Of a DNA stretch of 64,000 nucleotides, positions 1,084-60,940 are shown in pieces. A program made the translations under genes and the position numbers. Under the pieces are notes generated by a model. The model made no database searches and was not told where the DNA came from. It saw only the letters and a program-made list of their open reading frames with translations. The number at the start of each line of letters is the position of its first letter. Positions within the stretch are counted from its first letter, which is position 1. Source of the stretch: Rhizobium sp. GN54 (lineage in GTDB: Bacteria; Pseudomonadota; Alphaproteobacteria; Rhizobiales; Rhizobiaceae); assembly GCF_021026345.1 (NCBI RefSeq), contig NZ_JAJNCZ010000003.1, forward strand, positions 124,001 through 188,000. The letters are read 5' to 3'.

Positions 1084-3963
1084 CTACTCCGCCGCCTCCA
1101 GCTTGCCGGTGATCCGGCGAGAGCGGCGGGCCTGTTCGTCATACTCGATCTGCCAATCCGAAGGTCCGTTCGAGGGCGAGACCTGAACGGCCGTGACCTT
1201 GTATTCCGGGCAGTTGGTCGCCCAGTCGGAGAAGTCGGTCGTGATCACGTTCGCCTGCGTATCCGGGTGATGGAAGGTCGTATAGACCACGCCCGGCGAC
1301 ACGCGGTCGGTGATCAGCGCGCGCAGCGTCGTCTCGCCCGCCCGGCTGGCAAGCCGCACCCAGTCGCCCTCGCGGATACCACGGTTCTCGGCATCGTGCG
1401 GATGGATCTCCAGCCGGTCCTCCCCGTGCCAGACGACATTGTCGGTCCGCCGCGTCTGCGCGCCGACATTGTACTGGCTGAGGATGCGGCCGGTCGTCAG
1501 AAGCAGCGGGAAGCGCGGGCCGGTCTTCTCGTCGGTCGCGACATATTCGGTACGGATGAACTTGCCCTTGCCGCGCACGAAGCCGTCGATATGCATGATC
1601 GGCGAGCCTTGCGGATGCTTCTCGTTGCAGGGCCACTGCACCGAACCGATCTTGTCCAAGTAGTCGTAGGAGACGAGCGCGAAGCTCGGCGTGGTCGCCG
1701 CGATCTCGTCCATGATCTCGGAGGGATGGCGATAGTTCCAGGCGAGCCCCATGGCCTGCGCCATCTTCTGCGTCACCTCCCAGTCGGCATAGCCGTTGCG
1801 CGGCGTCATCACCCGGCGAACGCGGTTGATGCGGCGCTCGGCATTGGTGAAGGTGCCGTCCTTTTCCAGGAAGGTGGAGCCCGGCAGGAAGACGTGGGCG
1901 TAGTTCGCCGTCTCGTTGAGGAACAGGTCCTGCACGACGACGCATTCCATGGCGGCAAGGCCTGCCGAAACGTGCTTGGTGTCCGGGTCGGACTGAAGGA
2001 TATCCTCGCCCTGGATGTAGAGGCCCTTGAACGAGCCCTCCACGGCCGCGTCCAGCATGTTGGGGATGCGCAGGCCCGGCTCGTCGTTCAGTTCCACGCC
2101 CCAGAGCTTCTCGAAGATCGCGCGGGTCGCATCGTCGGAGATGTGGCGGTAGCCCGGCAGTTCGTGCGGGAAGGAGCCCATGTCGCAGGAGCCCTGCACA
2201 TTGTTCTGCCCGCGCAGCGGGTTCACGCCGACGCCCGGGCGGCCGATATTGCCGGTCGCCATGGCGAGGTTGGCGATGGCCATGACGGTGGTCGAGCCCT
2301 GGCTGTGCTCGGTGACGCCGAGCCCGTAGTAGATCGAGCCGTTGCCGCCGGTGGCGAACAGCCGTGCCGCGCCGCGGACGAGTTCGGCCGGAACGCCGGT
2401 GAGCGCCTCGACGGATTCCGGGCTGTTCCGGTCCTCGGAAACGAAGCCCGCCCAGTCCTCGAACTCCGACCAGTCGCAGCGCTCGCGGATGAATTTCTCG
2501 TCGAAGAGCCCTTCGGTGACGATCACATGGGCCAGCGCCGTGACCACGGCCACGTTCGTGCCGGGCCTGAGCGGCAGGTGGAAGCTCGCCTCGACATGCG
2601 CCCCCTTGACGAGGTCGATGCGGCGCGGGTCGATCACGATCAGCTTGGCGCCCTGCCGCAGCCGCTTCTTCAGCCGCGAGGCGAAGACGGGATGGCCATC
2701 GGTCGGATTGGCGCCGATGACGATGACCACGTCGGTTTCCTCGACCGAATCGAAGTTCTGCGTGCCCGCCGAGGTGCCGAAGGTCTGGCCGAGGCCGTAG
2801 CCGGTCGGCGAATGGCAGACGCGGGCGCAGGTGTCGACGTTGTTGTTGCCGAAGCCGGCGCGCACCAGCTTCTGGACGAGATAGGTCTCCTCGTTGGTGC
2901 AGCGCGACGAGGTGATGCCGCCGACGGAATCGCGGCCATACTGGTACTGGATGCGGCGGAACTCGCTCGCCACATGCGCGAACGCCTCCTCCCAGCTGAC
3001 CTCGCGCCACGGATCGGAGACCTTCTCGCGGATCATCGGATTGAGGATGCGGTCGCGGTGGGTGGAGTAGCCATAGGCGAAGCGGCCCTTGACGCAGGAG
3101 TGGCCGCGATTGGCCTGCCCGTCCTTCCACGGCACCATGCGCACGAGCTCCTCGCCGCGCATCTCCGCCTTGAACGAGCAGCCGACGCCGCAATAGGCGC
3201 AGGTTGTGACGACGGAATGCTCCGGCTGGCCGATGGCGATCACCGACTTCTCCGTCAGTGTCGCCGTCGGGCAGGCCTGTACGCAGGCGCCGCAGGAGAC
3301 GCATTCGGAGGAGACGAAGTCCTCGTGCATGCCGGCGGAGACGCGGCTGTCGAAGCCGCGGCCCTCGATCGTCAGCGCAAACGTGCCCTGCACTTCCTCG
3401 CAAGCGCGAACGCAGCGCGAGCAGACGATGCACTTGGAGCTGTCGAAGGTGAAATAGGGGTTGGATTCGTCCTTCGGCTGCCACTTGATGTTGACGGCGC
3501 CGTCGTTGCGGGCGCGCACGTGGTTCTCGCCTTCATAGCCGTAGCGCACGTCGCGCAGGCCCACCGCGCCCGCCATCTCCTGCAGTTCGCAGTCGCCGTT
3601 TGCGGCACAGGTGAGGCAATCGAGCGGATGGTCGGAGATATAGAGCTCCATCACGCCGCGGCGCACGTCCTTCAGCCGCGGCGTCTGGGTCGACACCACG
3701 AGCCCGGCCGCCACCGGCGTCGTGCAGGAGGCCGGCATGCCGGCCCGGCCCTGGATCTCCACGAGACAGAGCCGGCAGGAGCCGAAAGCATCTACCATGT
3801 CGGTGGCGCAGAGCTTGGGAATCTCGATGCCCGCTTCCATCGATGCGCGCATGATCGACGTGCCCTCCGGCACCGTGACCTCGTTGCCGTCGATCGTCAG
3901 CGTCACCATCTTTTCAGACCTGGAGGCCGGCGTGCCGTAGTCGATTTCACGAATGAGGGACAT
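1084..3963 (-). CDS. fdsA: NAD-dependent formate dehydrogenase alpha subunit FdsA
   Basis: The 959-residue catalytic subunit oxidises formate to CO2 at a bis-MGD molybdenum centre and passes electrons to FdsB. The N-terminal third looks like NuoG. A 2Fe-2S ferredoxin domain has cysteines at about 52, 63, 66 and 80, and a His-Cys3 4Fe-4S site has H112, C116, C119 and C125. Two ferredoxin-type 4Fe-4S motifs follow at 178-188 and 221-231, then the cofactor-proximal cluster at C255, C258, C262 and C290. The molybdenum ligand is an ordinary cysteine, about C383, followed by histidine (ARVCHSPTG); there is no selenocysteine codon. A strong GGAGG lies 6 bases before the chosen ATG, which rules out the internal Met19. 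It lies 62 bases downstream of fdsB. Confidence 0.96.
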   Translation of the reverse strand: MSLIREIDYGTPASRSEKMVTLTIDGNEVTVPEGTSIMRASMEAGIEIPKLCATDMVDAFGSCRLCLVEIQGRAGMPASCTTPVAAGLVVSTQTPRLKDVRRGVMELYISDHPLDCLTCAANGDCELQEMAGAVGLRDVRYGYEGENHVRARNDGAVNIKWQPKDESNPYFTFDSSKCIVCSRCVRACEEVQGTFALTIEGRGFDSRVSAGMHEDFVSSECVSCGACVQACPTATLTEKSVIAIGQPEHSVVTTCAYCGVGCSFKAEMRGEELVRMVPWKDGQANRGHSCVKGRFAYGYSTHRDRILNPMIREKVSDPWREVSWEEAFAHVASEFRRIQYQYGRDSVGGITSSRCTNEETYLVQKLVRAGFGNNNVDTCARVCHSPTGYGLGQTFGTSAGTQNFDSVEETDVVIVIGANPTDGHPVFASRLKKRLRQGAKLIVIDPRRIDLVKGAHVEASFHLPLRPGTNVAVVTALAHVIVTEGLFDEKFIRERCDWSEFEDWAGFVSEDRNSPESVEALTGVPAELVRGAARLFATGGNGSIYYGLGVTEHSQGSTTVMAIANLAMATGNIGRPGVGVNPLRGQNNVQGSCDMGSFPHELPGYRHISDDATRAIFEKLWGVELNDEPGLRIPNMLDAAVEGSFKGLYIQGEDILQSDPDTKHVSAGLAAMECVVVQDLFLNETANYAHVFLPGSTFLEKDGTFTNAERRINRVRRVMTPRNGYADWEVTQKMAQAMGLAWNYRHPSEIMDEIAATTPSFALVSYDYLDKIGSVQWPCNEKHPQGSPIMHIDGFVRGKGKFIRTEYVATDEKTGPRFPLLLTTGRILSQYNVGAQTRRTDNVVWHGEDRLEIHPHDAENRGIREGDWVRLASRAGETTLRALITDRVSPGVVYTTFHHPDTQANVITTDFSDWATNCPEYKVTAVQVSPSNGPSDWQIEYDEQARRSRRITGKLEAAE

Positions 3964-4025
3964 GGAAACCTCCGGATCAAGTCAGATGCGCCACGGGGTC
4001 AGGCCCGGACGACTTGGTTCAAATT

Positions 4026-4238
4026 CTACGCGTTCTCGGCCAGCGTGGCCGCCACAAGCGCATTGGCATGGCCATGGCCGAGACCGTGCGTCTCCTTCAG
4101 GAACGCTACGATCTGCATGTGCGCCTTACCTTCCTGCGCGCGGACGATTGCCTTCCAATGCTCGATCGGCTGGCCGTACTTCTTCTCGATCGAGGGGAAG
4201 TAGGAGGCAGGGCCTTTCAGTTTTTCCGTCTCGCTCAT
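4026..4238 (-). CDS. DUF4287-like domain, in frame with fdsB or an overlapping small gene
   Basis: This 70-codon stretch begins with its own ATG (MSETEKLKGP) and has the features of DUF4287 proteins: a PxxYFPSIEKK start, a central HWKAIVRA helix and the closing GLGHGHANALVA motif. It reads in frame with fdsB. However, the ATG is embedded in ATGA, where the TGA in the alternative frame would end fdsB with the residues WKAAE after Arg513, giving a 518-residue FdsB. A good ribosome-binding site (GGAAGG) lies 7 bases before this ATG. The likely ancestral state is a separate, translationally coupled small gene. The function of DUF4287 is not known to me. Confidence 0.6.
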   Translation of the reverse strand: MSETEKLKGPASYFPSIEKKYGQPIEHWKAIVRAQEGKAHMQIVAFLKETHGLGHGHANALVAATLAENA

Positions 4239-5792
4239 TCCGCCGCCTTCCACCCTCGGTGCCGGCGTAAAATCTTCCGGGAAATGCGTCATCGCGCTCA
4301 TCACCGGATAGGGCGTGAAGCCGCCGAGCGCGCAGAGCGAGCCGAACTTCATCGTGTTGCAGAGGTCCGCCAGAAGTTCGCGGTTCTTCTCGGGTTCGAC
4401 GCCATGGGCGATGTTGTCCGCCACCTCGACCCCGCGGGTCGAGCCGATCCGGCAGGGCGTGCATTTGCCACAGCTTTCGATGGCGCAGAACTCCATGGCG
4501 AAACGCGCCTGGTGCAGCATGTCGACCGTATCGTCGAAGACGACGATGCCGGCATGGCCGATCAGCCCGTCCTTGGCGGCGAAGCTCTCATAGTCGAACG
4601 GCGTGTCGAACAGGGCGCGCGGGAAATAGGCGCCGAGCGGGCCGCCGACCTGCACGGCCTTCACCGGCCGCTCCGAGGCCGTGCCGCCCGCAATGTGGTC
4701 GACGATCTCGCCGAGCGACAGCCCGAAGGCTGTTTCGTAGAGCCCGCCATGCTTGACATTACCGGCGATCTGGATCGGGATCGTGCCGCGCGAGCGGCCC
4801 ATGCCGAAGTCGCGGTAGAAGGTCGCGCCCCGGTCGAGGATGATCGGCACGGAGGCGAGCGAGATGACGTTGTTGATTACCGTGGGACAGTCGAACAGGC
4901 CCTTGTGCGCCGGCAGCGGCGGCTTGGCGCGGACGATGCCGCGCTTGCCCTCGAGGCTGTTGAGCAGCGCCGTCTCCTCGCCGCAGACATAGGCGCCGGC
5001 GCCGACGCGCACCTCCATGTCGAACGCGCGCCCCGAGCCCATGACCGATGGACCGAGCACGCCTTCGCGCCGCGCGATCTCGATCGCTGCGCTCATGGCG
5101 GCGATCGCGTGCGGATATTCGGAGCGGGTGTAGATGAAGCCCTTCGTGGCGCCGGTTGCAAGCCCGGCGATCGCCATGCCCTCGATCAGCACGAAGGGAT
5201 CGCCCTCCATGATCATCCGGTCGGCAAAGGTGCCACTATCGCCCTCGTCAGCATTGCAGACGATGTATTTCTGCGGCCCGGCGGCGTCGAGCACGGTCTT
5301 CCACTTGATGCCGGTCGGAAATCCGGCGCCGCCGCGGCCGCGCAGGCCGCTGTCGGTGACCTCGGTAACGATGTCGACAGGCGCCATCGCGATCGCCTTC
5401 TCCAGGCCGGTCAGCCCGCGGAAGCGCCGATAGTCGTCGAGCGAAAGCGGATCGACGATGCCGCAACGGGCAAAGGTCAGCCGCGTCTGCTGTTTCAGGA
5501 ACGGAATGTCCTTCGTCGCCCCCTGACGGAGCGGATGGTCGCCGCCCTCCAGGAAGCCGGCCGCAAACAGCGAGGCCACGTCGCCCGCCCTGACCGGGCC
5601 ATAGGCGATGCGCTCGTGATCCACGACCACCTCGACCAGCGGTTCGAGCCAGTGCATGCCGCGCGAGCCGTTGCGCACGATCGCGACGGCCACGCCCCGC
5701 TCGCCCGCCTCCCGCTCGATCGCGGCCACGACCCGGTCGGCGCCGAGCGCCAGGGCGGCTGCGTCCTTAGGAACGTAAACCTTCACCGTCAT
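4026..5792 (-). CDS. fdsB: NAD-dependent formate dehydrogenase beta subunit FdsB with C-terminal DUF4287-like extension
   Basis: A 588-residue flavoprotein subunit that takes electrons from FdsA and FdsG and reduces NAD+. The N-terminal part is the thioredoxin-like fold found in FdsB/HoxF. The NuoF-like core follows, with GLRGRGGAGFPTG at about 149-161 for nucleotide binding and a Gly-rich GAGAYVCGEETAL segment for FMN. The 4Fe-4S motif ESCGKCTPC starts at 439 (C441, C444, C447) with a fourth cysteine near 487. The start at MTVKVYVPKD overlaps the fdsG stop as ATGA. The usual protein ends near residue 518; here the frame continues through a Gly-rich junction into about 70 residues resembling DUF4287 (YFPSIEKK near the start, GLGHGHANALVA near the end). 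See the separate entry and finding. Confidence 0.93.
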   Translation of the reverse strand: MTVKVYVPKDAAALALGADRVVAAIEREAGERGVAVAIVRNGSRGMHWLEPLVEVVVDHERIAYGPVRAGDVASLFAAGFLEGGDHPLRQGATKDIPFLKQQTRLTFARCGIVDPLSLDDYRRFRGLTGLEKAIAMAPVDIVTEVTDSGLRGRGGAGFPTGIKWKTVLDAAGPQKYIVCNADEGDSGTFADRMIMEGDPFVLIEGMAIAGLATGATKGFIYTRSEYPHAIAAMSAAIEIARREGVLGPSVMGSGRAFDMEVRVGAGAYVCGEETALLNSLEGKRGIVRAKPPLPAHKGLFDCPTVINNVISLASVPIILDRGATFYRDFGMGRSRGTIPIQIAGNVKHGGLYETAFGLSLGEIVDHIAGGTASERPVKAVQVGGPLGAYFPRALFDTPFDYESFAAKDGLIGHAGIVVFDDTVDMLHQARFAMEFCAIESCGKCTPCRIGSTRGVEVADNIAHGVEPEKNRELLADLCNTMKFGSLCALGGFTPYPVMSAMTHFPEDFTPAPRVEGGGMSETEKLKGPASYFPSIEKKYGQPIEHWKAIVRAQEGKAHMQIVAFLKETHGLGHGHANALVAATLAENA

Positions 5793-6265
5793 CGGCGTGC
5801 CTCCCGGACAAGCTCGGTGGCCGCGGCGGCATCGAGGCCGGCATGGACCTCGCCGTCCAGCATCGCGCTCGGCGCGCACGAACAGAGCCCCAGACAGTAG
5901 ACCGGCTCGAGCGTGACCGCCCCGTCGAGCGTCGTCTGGTGGAAATCGATGCCGAGCAGAGCCTTGACGCGCGCGGCGACGGCATCGGCCCCCATCGACT
6001 GGCAGGCCTCGGCGCGACAGAGCTTCAGCACATGCCGCCCGGTCGGGTGATCGCGGAAATCATGGTAGAAGGTGACAACGCCATGCACCTCGGCGCGCGA
6101 CAGGTTCAGTTCCCGCGCGATCACCGGCAGGCTGTCCTGCGGCACATAGCCGAACTCGGCCTGGATTTCGTGCAGGATCGGCAGCAGCGGCCCTTCGGCC
6201 CCCTTCATCGCCGTGACGATGGCAAGGGTCCTCGCCGCCACGTCACCGGAAACATGCAGGTTCAT
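5789..6265 (-). CDS. fdsG: NAD-dependent formate dehydrogenase gamma subunit FdsG
   Basis: A 158-residue NuoE-like protein that holds one 2Fe-2S cluster and forms the NAD-reducing module with FdsB. The ligand cysteines are visible as C83 and C88 (CRAEAC) and C124 and C128 (CLGLC). The helical N-terminal half with LPILHEIQAEFGYVP is typical of the family. The start at MNLHVSGDVA is fixed by a GGGAGGA ribosome-binding site 6 bases upstream. It is the first gene of the fdsGBA-fdhD-fdsD unit, and its stop overlaps the fdsB start. Confidence 0.95.
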   Translation of the reverse strand: MNLHVSGDVAARTLAIVTAMKGAEGPLLPILHEIQAEFGYVPQDSLPVIARELNLSRAEVHGVVTFYHDFRDHPTGRHVLKLCRAEACQSMGADAVAARVKALLGIDFHQTTLDGAVTLEPVYCLGLCSCAPSAMLDGEVHAGLDAAAATELVREARR

Positions 6266-16751: not shown

Positions 16752-18476
16752 ATGCGAAAGCAACTGATGACAACGACTGCAGTCATGCTGCTGGCCTTTA
16801 CCGGCACGGCCTTCGCGGATATGGAGGCCGCGAAGAAATTCCTCGACGCCGAGATCGGCGACATGTCGAGCCTCGACCGCGCCGCACAGGAAGCGGAGAT
16901 GCAATGGTTCATCGACGCCGCCAAGCCCTTCGCCGGCATGGACATCAAGGTCGTGTCGGAGACGATCACCACGCATGAATACGAATCCAAGGTGCTCGCC
17001 AAGGCCTTCTCGGAGATCACCGGCATCAAGCTGACGCACGACCTCATCGGCGAAGGCGACGTGATCGAGAAATTGCAGACGCAGATGCAGTCGGGCGAGA
17101 ACATCTACGACGCCTACGTCAACGATAGTGACTTGATCGGCACGCACTGGCGCTACCAGCAGGCGCGTTCGCTGACCGATTTCATGGCCAACGAGGGCAA
17201 GGACGTCACCAACCCGGGCCTCGACCTCGCCGACTTCATCGGCACCTCGTTCACGACAGCTCCGGACGGCAAGCTCTACCAGCTCCCCGACCAGCAGTTC
17301 GCGAACCTCTACTGGTTCCGCTACGACTGGTTCAACGACGAGAAGAACAAGGCCGACTTCAAGGCGAAGTACGGCTACGACCTCGGCGTGCCGGTCAACT
17401 GGTCGGCCTATGAGGACATCGCCGAATTCTTCACCGGTCGCGAAATCGACGGCAAGAAGGTCTATGGGCACATGGACTACGGCAAGAAGGACCCGTCGCT
17501 CGGCTGGCGCTTCACCGACGCCTGGCTGTCGATGGCCGGCAACGGCGACCGCGGCATCCCGAACGGCAAGCCGGTCGACGAATGGGGCATCAAGGTCGAC
17601 GAGAACTCGCGTCCGGTCGGCTCCTGCGTTGCCCGCGGCGGCGACACCAACGGCCCGGCATCGGTCTATTCGATCGAGAAGTACCTGGAGTGGCTGAAGG
17701 CCTACGCGCCGGCCGCAGCCCAGGGCATGACCTTCTCCGAATCCGGCCCGGTCCCGAGCCAGGGCGAGGTCGCCCAGCAGATGTTCACCTACACGGCGTT
17801 CACTGCGGACTTCGTGAAGCCGGGTCTTCCGGTCGTGAACGAAGACGGCACGCCGAAGTGGCGTTTCGCCCCCAGCCCGCACGGCGTCTACTGGAAGGAC
17901 GGGATGAAGCTCGGCTACCAGGACGTGGGCTCCTGGACCCTGCTCAAGTCCACGCCGGACGATCGCGCCAAGGCCGCCTGGCTCTATGCGCAGTTCGTCA
18001 CCTCCAAGACCGTCGACGTCAAGAAGAGCCATGTCGGCCTGACGCTGATCCGCGAATCGACGATCCAGCACAAGAGCTTCACGGACCGTGCGCCGAAGCT
18101 CGGCGGCCTGATCGAGTTCTACCGTTCGCCGGCCCGCGTCCAGTGGTCGCCGACCGGCACGAACATCCCGGACTACCCGAAGCTCGCGCAGCTCTGGTGG
18201 CAGGCGATCGGCGACGCGTCCTCGGGCGCCAAGTCGGCCCAGGAAGCCATGGACTCGCTCTGCGCCGAGCAGGAGAAGGTGCTGGAGCGTCTCGAGCGCG
18301 CCGGCGTCATGGGCGACATGGGTCCGAAGCTCGCCGAGGAGCATGATCTCGAATACTGGAACAAGGACGCCGTCTCCAAGGGCAACCTCGCTCCGCAACT
18401 CAAGATCGAAAACGAGAAGGAAAAGCCGATCACCGTCAACTACGACGAACTCGTCAAGAGCTGGCAGACGAATTGA
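16752..18476 (+). CDS. glpV: Glycerol ABC transporter substrate-binding protein GlpV
   Basis: A 574-residue periplasmic solute-binding protein with a clear signal peptide (residues 1-21, MRKQLM then a hydrophobic run, cleavage after AFA). Its length fits the large extracellular solute-binding proteins of glycerol importers rather than the usual 400 residues. It captures glycerol and delivers it to GlpP/GlpQ. A GGGAGGAAACT motif lies before the ATG. It is the last gene of the operon, followed by two hairpins. Confidence 0.92.
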   Translation: MRKQLMTTTAVMLLAFTGTAFADMEAAKKFLDAEIGDMSSLDRAAQEAEMQWFIDAAKPFAGMDIKVVSETITTHEYESKVLAKAFSEITGIKLTHDLIGEGDVIEKLQTQMQSGENIYDAYVNDSDLIGTHWRYQQARSLTDFMANEGKDVTNPGLDLADFIGTSFTTAPDGKLYQLPDQQFANLYWFRYDWFNDEKNKADFKAKYGYDLGVPVNWSAYEDIAEFFTGREIDGKKVYGHMDYGKKDPSLGWRFTDAWLSMAGNGDRGIPNGKPVDEWGIKVDENSRPVGSCVARGGDTNGPASVYSIEKYLEWLKAYAPAAAQGMTFSESGPVPSQGEVAQQMFTYTAFTADFVKPGLPVVNEDGTPKWRFAPSPHGVYWKDGMKLGYQDVGSWTLLKSTPDDRAKAAWLYAQFVTSKTVDVKKSHVGLTLIRESTIQHKSFTDRAPKLGGLIEFYRSPARVQWSPTGTNIPDYPKLAQLWWQAIGDASSGAKSAQEAMDSLCAEQEKVLERLERAGVMGDMGPKLAEEHDLEYWNKDAVSKGNLAPQLKIENEKEKPITVNYDELVKSWQTN

Positions 18477-18487
18477 TCGGTAGGCAT

Positions 18488-18514
18488 CAGGGCTCAAGGC
18501 GGACCTGAGCCCTG
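18488..18514 (+). other. Stem-loop after glpV
   Basis: CAGGGCTCA at 18488-18496 pairs perfectly with TGAGCCCTG at 18506-18514 around a 9-base loop. No T-run follows, so it is not an intrinsic terminator by itself. It lies between the glpV stop and the terminator and may protect the 3' end of the glp mRNA. Confidence 0.6.
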
Positions 18515-18523
18515 ACCAACACG

Positions 18524-18557
18524 CCGCCCGGAGGGAAGCTTCCGGGCGGTTTTTCTT
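18524..18557 (+). terminator. Intrinsic terminator of the glycerol operon
   Basis: CCGCCCGGA at 18524-18532 pairs with TCCGGGCGG at 18541-18549 around 8 bases and is followed by TTTTTCTTTT. This is a textbook Rho-independent terminator 50 bases after glpV. Confidence 0.9.
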
Positions 18558-18700
18558 TTGCGCGAGCACCATTGCCCGCGACACCCGGCCCAGAGAGCCG
18601 GAAACGCGCCGGCCCTTCACCCGAGACGCCTCTTCCGCCGGCGGGAACTGTCGAATGCAGGACCGGCGACGCCTCTGGCGTCCGTGGAAGCACGGCGTGC

Positions 18701-19822
18701 TCAGATCCGCGTGGCCCTGAGCCGATCCTCGTCGAGGCTGGCGCCGAGGCCCGGTGTGTCGCCGAGCTCCAGCCAGCCGTCCTTATGTTGCAGCGGCTGG
18801 GCCATCGGATAGTCGCGCCGCGCCTCGCTCCATTCGGGATTGTCGTAGGGATATTCCAGGAACGGCGCGTCACCGCAGCCGGCGGTCAGGTGCGCGTTGG
18901 CAAGCACGCCGATGCCGTTCGTCCAGCTGTGCGGCGTAAACGTCACGCCCGCCTCGCGGGCTTGGTAGGCCAGCCTGCGGCAGCCGGTGATGCCGCCAAC
19001 GAGCGCCACGTCCGGCTGGATCACGTCGAAGGCCCGCTCCTCGATGATGTCGCGGAATTCGTAGAGCTCGCGGGTCATCTCGCCGCCGGCGATCCGCACC
19101 GACGTCGCCTCCTTCAGCGCCTTCATCCCGTTGAGGTCGGACCGGTGCAGCGGCTCCTCCATCCAGTAGACGCCGAGCCGCTCGAGCTCCCTCGCCACCG
19201 CCAGCGCGTCCTTGAACGTCCAGGGAAGCGTCGTGTCCCAGGGCATTCGCCAGCCTTGATTGCAGTCGACCATCAGCTCCAGCCGGTCGCCGACGCGGGC
19301 GCGGATCGCCTCCAGCGCCTTCACATCGTCGCGCCACCCGTTGCGGCCGCCGGCAGACGACGAGAAGCGCACCTTCATCGCCAGAAAGCCCTCCGCGATG
19401 TAGCGCTCGGCCTGGTCGGCCATGGCGGACGGCTCCCGCAGAACGCCGGAGGAGGCGTAGAGCCGCACCCGATCGGCGCGACCGCCCAGCATGCGCCAGA
19501 CCGGCTCGCCGGTGATCTTGCCCGAGAGGTCCCAGAGCGCGAGATCCAGCGGCCAGCAGCGGCCATAGTGGAAATTGATGTGCGACAGCACCTCATGGTG
19601 CCGTTCGAGATGGCGCGGGTCCTGGCCGACGAACAGGTCTTCGTGGCCCTCGAAGCCCTTCATCAGATCGCCGGATCCGATCCCTTCCCGGCCCTCGTCG
19701 TCGCGCACCCGGACGATCGTCGCATCGAAATGATGCCGCGGCCTGCCATCCCAGCTTGCCTTGAACGGCGGATCGAGCGACAGCCGGTGGTGGGAGATCT
19801 CGATGGATGTGATGCGGCTCAT
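18701..19822 (-). CDS. Mandelate racemase/enolase-superfamily enzyme
   Basis: A 373-residue enolase-superfamily protein, most likely a sugar-acid dehydratase or related enzyme. The N-terminal capping domain (about 1-115) is followed by a barrel. Visible catalytic positions are K150-x-R152, metal ligands D186, E222 and E248 (GGE), D271 (QPDV) and H298 (TPHSW), with E323 near the end. The second base of the KxK motif is arginine, so the exact subgroup is uncertain. It follows the ADH-ALDH pair on the same strand after a 187-base gap that holds a RIME-like repeat. The substrate is not predictable from sequence alone. Confidence 0.85.
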   Translation of the reverse strand: MSRITSIEISHHRLSLDPPFKASWDGRPRHHFDATIVRVRDDEGREGIGSGDLMKGFEGHEDLFVGQDPRHLERHHEVLSHINFHYGRCWPLDLALWDLSGKITGEPVWRMLGGRADRVRLYASSGVLREPSAMADQAERYIAEGFLAMKVRFSSSAGGRNGWRDDVKALEAIRARVGDRLELMVDCNQGWRMPWDTTLPWTFKDALAVARELERLGVYWMEEPLHRSDLNGMKALKEATSVRIAGGEMTRELYEFRDIIEERAFDVIQPDVALVGGITGCRRLAYQAREAGVTFTPHSWTNGIGVLANAHLTAGCGDAPFLEYPYDNPEWSEARRDYPMAQPLQHKDGWLELGDTPGLGASLDEDRLRATRI

Positions 19823-48354: not shown

Positions 48355-49257
48355 TCAGCCCTTCAGGACTTCGACGAGGGTCTTGCCGAGGCGCGCCGGG
48401 GACGGCGACACCTTGATGCCGGCCGCTTCCATGGCCGCGATCTTCGATTCCGCGTCGCCCTTGCCGCCGGAGACGACGGCGCCGGCATGGCCCATGGTGC
48501 GGCCCTTCGGCGCCGTACGACCGGCGATGAAGCCGGCCATCGGCTTCTTGCGGCCCTTCTTGGCTTCGTCGATGAGGAACTGCGCCGCATCTTCCTCGGC
48601 CGAGCCGCCGATCTCGCCGATCATGATGATCGAGGTCGTGGCCTCGTCGGCGAGGAACATCTCCAGCACGTCGATGAACTCGGTGCCCTTGACCGGGTCG
48701 CCGCCGATGCCGACAGCGGTGGTCTGGCCGAGGCCTTCGTTGGAGGTCTGGAACACGGCTTCATAGGTCAGCGTACCGGAGCGCGAGACGATGCCGACCG
48801 AACCCTTGCGGAAGATCGAACCCGGCATGATGCCGATCTTGCATTCTTCCGGCGTCAGGATGCCCGGGCAGTTCGGACCGAGCAGGCGCGACTTCGACTT
48901 GTCGAGACGGGCCTTCACCCGCACCATGTCCATGACCGGGATGCCCTCGGTGATGCAGGTGATGAACGGGATCTCGGCGTCGATCGCCTCGATGATCGCA
49001 TCCGCAGCACCAGCCGGCGGAACGTAGATCACCGACGCGTCGGCACCGGTCTTTTCCTTGGCCTCGGCGACGGTTGCGAAGATCGGCAGGCTTTCGCCCT
49101 TCGAGCCGGTCCAGGTTTCGCCGCCCTTCTTCGGGTGGATGCCGCCGACCATCTGCGTGCCGTAGTAGGCGAGCGCCTGCTCGGTATGGAAGGTGCCGGT
49201 CTTGCCGGTCAGGCCCTGAACGAGAACCTTGGTATTCTTGTTGACGAGAATAGACAT
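48355..49257 (-). CDS. sucD: Succinyl-CoA synthetase alpha subunit
   Basis: A 300-residue subunit that binds CoA and carries the phosphohistidine intermediate. N-terminal [12 protein letters not shown] binds Co[11 protein letters not shown] and the C-terminal [17 protein letters not shown], with catalytic H257, are canonical. It follows sucC by 16 bases, and the two form the alpha-beta enzyme. Confidence 0.97.
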
Positions 49258-49273
49258 CTAGCAGGTCCTCAAA

Positions 49274-50467
<1,194 letters not shown>

Positions 50468-60022: not shown

Positions 60023-60694
60023 TCAGGCTCCTGAATGGTCATAGGGTCGGGCGAGCAGCACGGCGCGTCCGGCGGCAAGGGTGAAGGTGACGGGGCCGAG
60101 CGCGACGTTGGAAACCGTGCGCGACGAGCCGAACGGCAGGTCGAACCCGCTCAACGGATAGCGGACGTTCTCGATCGACAGGCCCGAGAGCGCCGACAGG
60201 CCAAGAACCGAAAACAGGCTCCTGTCCGGCAGCGCGACGGTGGTGCGGCCGGCAAGCAGCGGCCATGCCTCCTCGAGGCCGGAGGTCAGCGTGATGTCGA
60301 GCCCGTCCTCCCTGAGCGCTACGGCATGGAGAAGGTGCATCAGAGCATGGTCGCTGCGCTCGCCGCCGAGCGCGCCGGCGAGGATGAGCCGGCGCGCGCC
60401 ACGCTCCAGCGCCACCGAGACGGCAATCTCCCCGTCCGTCGCATTCTTGGCCGCCGGATAGGGCTCGCGCGGGATATGCGCCCACGTCGCAAGGTCTTCC
60501 GGCGTGGTGGAATCGAAATCGCCGACCCAGACCTCGGGCGTGATCCCGAGGGCTGCGGCATGGCGCATGCCGCCGTCGGCGGCGATGAAGCGGGCGCCGG
60601 CGACCGACGCCCTGAACCGCGCGGTCGGTTCGAGCGTTCCTCCGAGAAGGACGACAAAGAGCGGGTCGGGAACGTTCGTCAGGGGCACCGTCAT
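60023..60694 (-). CDS. thiN: Thiamine pyrophosphokinase (thiamine diphosphokinase)
   Basis: A 223-residue kinase that turns imported thiamine into TPP. The active-site motif GDFDS is at 58-62, preceded by AADGGMRHA near 39-47. NATDGEIAV follows at mid-protein and GALGGERSDHAL near 120. The start MTVPLTNVPD gives the usual family length. A 68-codon open stretch upstream crosses the riboswitch region and is not coding. It is divergent from thiBPQ, so uptake and phosphorylation genes are neighbours. Confidence 0.92.
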   Translation of the reverse strand: MTVPLTNVPDPLFVVLLGGTLEPTARFRASVAGARFIAADGGMRHAAALGITPEVWVGDFDSTTPEDLATWAHIPREPYPAAKNATDGEIAVSVALERGARRLILAGALGGERSDHALMHLLHAVALREDGLDITLTSGLEEAWPLLAGRTTVALPDRSLFSVLGLSALSGLSIENVRYPLSGFDLPFGSSRTVSNVALGPVTFTLAAGRAVLLARPYDHSGA

Positions 60695-60793
60695 GGGCAC
60701 ACCGTCTAGCGCATGTCGCCCGCGAATGGAAACGCCTTTCCGCCCTGCCGCCCGCTTGCAAGCGGGGCCGCGGCGGACTATTGCTTGCCTTGC

Positions 60794-60890
60794 TCTAACG
60801 GGGTGCCCGACCATCGCAGGATGGACCGGGCTGAGAGGCCAAGGCCAACCCGAAGAACCTGATCCGGTTTGTACCGGCGGAGGGATTAGA
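60794..60890 (+). ncRNA. TPP riboswitch (THI element)
   Basis: The conserved thi-box features are all visible: CGGGGTGCC near 60800, GGGCTGAGAGG near 60828, GAACCTGATCCGGTTTGTACC near 60855 and the closing GCGGAGGGATTAGA. The P1 stem is TCTAA at 60794-60798 with TTAGA at 60886-60890. It lies 40-50 bases before the thiB ribosome-binding site, so it should lower thiBPQ expression when TPP is plentiful. Confidence 0.95.
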
Positions 60891-60940
60891 CGGCACATCC
60901 GGCGCCCTATTCCCGTTTATTGGATTTGAAGGAGGCCCCG

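Follow-up and report, generated by a model that had tools for sequence, protein, structure and literature searches.

NAD-dependent formate dehydrogenases (FDH) encoded by fdsGBACD operons, and gene pairs whose stop and start codons overlap, are the described systems closest to the locus reported here, which lies in a 64,000-nucleotide stretch of the Rhizobium sp. GN54 genome (hereafter the window). Overlapping stop/start pairs can fuse through one base. In the coupled overlapping pairs treated in the available parts of a survey (PMC3711429), the stop and start are co-located and a ribosome-binding site lies upstream, an arrangement shared by relatives of the window, whereas the window itself has neither the stop nor the frame change. 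Residues 4-511 of the window FdsB span nearly the whole of two solved chains, 6vw7_B (E = 4.4e-234) and 6tg9_B (E = 1.1e-206), and this full-length homology, together with the 51K FMN and NADH 4Fe-4S domains and the fds operon neighbors, identifies the protein as FdsB. It departs from solved FDH beta chains (500-520 aa in the first three listed) by 70 extra C-terminal residues and, at 588 aa, runs past the usual chain end near residue 500-520. The literature searched, from which subscription journals were mostly absent, contained no report of a fusion between FdsB and DUF4287, the domain that follows it here.

The operon runs on the minus strand in the order fdsG, fdsB, (DUF4287), fdsA, fdsC, fdsD, the same as fdsGBACD apart from the DUF4287 insert, and the Pfam domains of fdsG, fdsA, fdsC and fdsD all lie in open frames. 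fdsG (2Fe-2S thioredoxin-like) occupies 5789-6265, with a putative start at 6265 and 5789-6205 scanned with Pfam. The molybdopterin subunit fdsA is an open frame of 959 aa at 1084-3963, fdsC (FdhD/NarQ family) encodes 280 aa at 182-1024, and fdsD (PF11390) occupies 1-170 and continues beyond the window edge, a 75-codon open frame for it being present at 3946-4170 of locus L177 (E = 1.2e-27). The TGA of fdsG overlaps the ATG of fdsB as ATGA at 5789-5792; if relatives share this overlap, three consecutive genes would be joined by four-base overlaps. Long open frames also run antisense to fdsB and fdsA (e.g., 4014-5900 on the plus strand), presumably owing to codon usage rich in G+C (0.659 over 188 kb), and confuse ORF-based frameshift scans.

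Structure of the fused frame and position of the extra base

The fused frame extends over 4026-5792 on the minus strand, from the ATG at 5792 to the TAG at 4028-4026, and its 588-aa translation holds three Pfam domains in a single frame: Complex1_51K (E = 6.2e-45), NADH_4Fe-4S (3.7e-26) and DUF4287 (1.9e-23). A first-pass annotation of the window had read the fdsB frame as running 70 codons on into a "DUF4287-like" domain; the run-on is borne out by the frame and the Pfam matches, and DUF4287 is present, but the wording proved too weak since the tail is a full member of PF14117 (82.7 bits, the cut-off being 27; profile positions 1-58 of 60). The FdsB part covers 4248-5792 on the minus strand (residues 1-515, 487 of 515 identical to G002, a genome of the same genus). 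The DUF4287 part (70 aa) covers 4029-4238 on the same strand and has its own ATG at 4238-4236, the start of MSETEK in the junction quoted by that annotation, which agrees with the window. Being conserved as a domain and equipped with a start codon of its own, the tail is not a chance open frame.

Between the two parts, the junction AGGGTGGAAGGCGGCGGA (4239-4256, minus strand) is one base longer than in relatives according to both the DNA alignment and a listing of junctions. Of the 14 aligned rows (13 from loci, with L003 and L122 representing one place, plus the window), only that of the window carries the extra base, which is placed at the AA (4249-4248) of GTGGAAGGC where relatives read GTGGAGGC (GGAGGC). 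An insertion in the AGGG run (4256-4253) had been proposed earlier; the single additional base is confirmed, but its position is just after the run, at 4248-4249, and AGGG is found as well in L002, L004 and L005, in which fdsB stops normally. With the extra base, the conserved EAAE terminus of FdsB is altered.

fdsB ends and DUF4287 in related genomes

Relatives were taken as the best-scoring loci, 30 from a first search and the best 80 of 591 confirmed matches from a second, plus those from later searches. Scanning L001-L150 gave 126 distinct fdsB ends (distinct over 120 bases around the end, so near-identical strains may remain), of which 125 are stop-terminated, 124 in AAE* and one in NAE*, the sole fused one being the window. 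L107, L134 and L137, missed by the scan pattern, end in AAE* too, bringing the stop-terminated ends near residue 518 to 128 of 129, with 127 in AAE*. L134 and L137 had been candidates for second fusions and were rejected when reading in three frames gave an EAAE* stop and a four-base overlap. The other 11 loci have no fdsB end: L111-L120 are paralogous matches of 38-45% identity, and in L150 DUF4287 is not behind fdsB. A long ancestral FdsB is ruled out by these stop-terminated ends; a 588-residue form universal in relatives was looked for and not seen. They also place the end of a separate FdsB near residue 518 as first annotated, although the PRWKAAE terminus expected there is PRVEAAE in the closest relatives.

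Of the 125 distinct stop-terminated ends, 29 are followed by DUF4287 within 400 bases, as are those of L134 and L137. Among the 33 fdsB-DUF4287 pairs lying within about 450 bases, 29 overlap by four bases (ATGA or GTGA; that of L003 was taken from bases read directly), and the remaining four comprise a single-base overlap in L145 and the more distant pairs of L146, L143 and L147. The layout is looser in L143 and L147, where fdsB ends in EAAE* and DUF4287 follows 445 bases on with other sequence between. A four-base overlap of two genes, the prior state suggested at first (as ATGA), is thus what most nearby pairs show. The DUF4287 proteins behind fdsB in related genomes (22 relatives aligned) contain the full domain, at 61-93% identity to that of the window, and differ in starting inside the fdsB stop codon instead of being joined in frame to FdsB. 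No DUF4287 is found within 400 bases of the other 96 of the 125 ends, and the true share is likely higher since some loci in the sample were retrieved for their DUF4287. Within the genus, two of six other genomes (G002, G003) have the separate pair and four (G001, G004, G005, G006) have no DUF4287 behind fdsB. Short C/G-rich palindromes that look like dispersed intergenic repeats stand directly behind the fdsB stop in five loci without DUF4287 (L002, L004, L005, L014 and L026), e.g., CTCCCCGCAAGCGGGGAG in L004.

DUF4287 overlapping fdsB recurs in several genera, judging by the genus groups of the family-genome search. It also occurs away from fdsB, on another contig in G027 and in copies near AbrB, AI-2E transporter or FUSC genes. 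No common theme emerged among the neighbors of such copies in L191-L196, where 10 of 47 ORFs were scanned (none from L191). Because copies away from fdsB sit in differing neighborhoods, DUF4287 is not specific to fds operons. A plasmid search (15 of 186 records listed) contributed only to the distribution.

Insertion mutation versus sequence error

We consider it probable that a lineage-specific one-base insertion at the four-base overlap shifted the fdsB end into the frame of DUF4287, leaving the usual stop unread; the insertion would then be real and confined to this lineage. The main competing explanation, that the extra base arose by mistake in sequencing or assembly and the organism has an ordinary overlapping pair, is in our view rather unlikely, though it draws on the rarity of the fused state. 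When a 105-residue junction query was searched against 394 family genomes and 199 order genomes (E up to 1e-18 in the latter), the only end-to-end match among those listed, in both sets, was the assembly containing the window (G000). The sets hold one genome per species, are partly shared and both count G000, and since matches were listed by E-value an equally similar fusion would rank near the top while a strongly diverged one might escape notice. A fusion in more than one species was thus not seen among these genomes, as a fixed fusion-protein family would require. Judged from the genomes compared, the fused state reflects a single recent change or a miscalled base and is no new kind of enzyme. 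The accessible text of the PMC3711429 survey deems singleton frame transitions likely to be indel mutations or sequencing errors, a view in line with an error that fits a real indel alike. Ordinary constraint on both halves (below) is likewise what would be expected had nothing happened.

Against an error stands the quality of the surrounding sequence. A frameshift scan compared 188 kb of G000 (assembly 5.57 Mb) with G005 and G002 in both directions, candidates being listed in six directions. Genes of G005 (159; 173,784 nt) and G002 (153; 165,402 nt) gave 7 and 8 frame-change rows against G000, none of which share a place in the 188 kb. In the reverse comparison, G000 frames yielded 11 rows with G005 and 6 with G002, four frames being flagged by both. 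Inspection was confined to frames flagged by both relatives. Two of the four (17638-19368 and 90353-92482) were judged to be shadow frames, the first half of one and all of the other having no Pfam match. In 48666-49394 and in 184023-184898 (60023-60898 of the window) the indel falls in the leader, ahead of a VTT domain (below its Pfam curated cut-off) and of a thiamin pyrophosphokinase domain, respectively. No other in-gene frameshift supported by both relatives was therefore found in the 188 kb, which argues for a low in-gene indel rate in the assembly. Only the comparison with G002 flagged the fdsB-DUF4287 junction, as G005 lacks DUF4287 at this place; among the cases inspected, the junction alone joins two Pfam domains.

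The position of the extra base points the same way. There is no long homopolymer at the site, and random errors would be expected within genes more often than here; one is unlikely to land on the few bases that leave two whole domains in frame, where a true indel survives. Since no other supported in-gene frameshift occurs in the 188 kb and the position is harmless, a true indel is favored, and we judge a real mutation considerably more probable than an error. The core of the first-pass annotation, which allowed for a one-base insertion fusing two overlapping genes or an indel in the read, agrees with the 128 of 129 fdsB ends and the 29 of 33 overlaps.

Consequences for FdsB and DUF4287

Both halves look intact. 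For FdsB, the dN/dS pairs were 0.032/0.305 against G002 and 0.063/0.679 against G003; for DUF4287 they were 0.038/0.321 and 0.025/0.355, respectively, giving ratios of 0.07-0.12 in both halves, although these values, being comparisons between species, give no age for the fusion. In a 23-row alignment that includes the window, the DUF4287 part never departs from the shared residue at the 30 invariant or the 8 nearly invariant columns. Modeled alone, DUF4287 is a predicted four-helix domain (mean pLDDT 86.6). The model of the fused protein is poor (mean pLDDT 64.7, 17 rows), with a linker at 513-526 below pLDDT 50, and so says little. No match of DUF4287 to PDB sequences was found up to E 1, and a fold search gave 37 matches, the best at E 1.7, none indicating a function. 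FdsD likewise is a subunit of four helices, some 70 residues long. DUF4287 was not equated with it, fdsD being separately present and FdsD absent from the 37 fold matches.

If the insertion is real, the ribosome would make a 588-residue FdsB carrying DUF4287 at the end of a short, flexible linker, and the FDH complex would tolerate the tail, the C-terminus of FdsB presumably being loose. Of the 500 FdsB residues in the R. capsulatus FDH structure, 493 were modeled (PMC7171172), and the C-terminus seems a tolerant place. A tolerated C-terminal tail is the likeliest outcome for FdsB, and no gain of function would be needed. We infer from the four-base overlap that fdsB and DUF4287 are translationally coupled in relatives, and the GGAGG near the fdsB end is likely the ribosome-binding site of the DUF4287 gene. 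Initiation at the DUF4287 ATG would still give some free DUF4287, though probably with lower efficiency, the GGAGG site being altered and the stop for reinitiation removed. The best anti-Shine-Dalgarno duplex is -7.2 kcal/mol in the window, which also has a second register, and -9.3 or -10.3 in nine of 10 relatives tested, these energies being a rough guide. The loss at this site may be slight because the window value is still better than the -5.9 kcal/mol of L021, which has a separate pair.

Translation of the fused frame with a tail that impairs FDH, as an early stage of operon decay, would fit the altered EAAE end and ribosome-binding site, but the open frames of fdsG, fdsA, fdsC and fdsD with their Pfam domains and the dN/dS of 0.07-0.12 make it improbable. 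It is very doubtful that DUF4287 is an unrecognized optional accessory of the FDH diaphorase in rhizobia, coupled to FdsB and here a working covalent domain. An adaptive fusion, in which tethering would enhance an action of DUF4287 on or together with the FdsB-FdsG diaphorase, is hardly credible: the four-base overlap in 29 of 33 nearby cases across several genus groups and the conservation of both halves would suit it, but DUF4287 is missing within 400 bases of 96 of 125 fdsB ends and behind fdsB in four of six sister genomes, occurs away from fdsB too, has no fold match indicating a function, and was seen fused only once.

A tolerated lineage-specific insertion, our preferred reading, neatly illustrates two proteins being made one by a single base where stop and start overlap, with the separate state preserved in two genomes of the same genus. 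If true, the fusion would tether DUF4287 to the NAD-reducing flavoprotein of formate dehydrogenase. Taken alone, it is a minor event in a single genome, and the wider lead is DUF4287 overlapping fdsB in several genera. A small uncharacterized protein that recurs directly behind fdsB may merit testing as an FDH partner.
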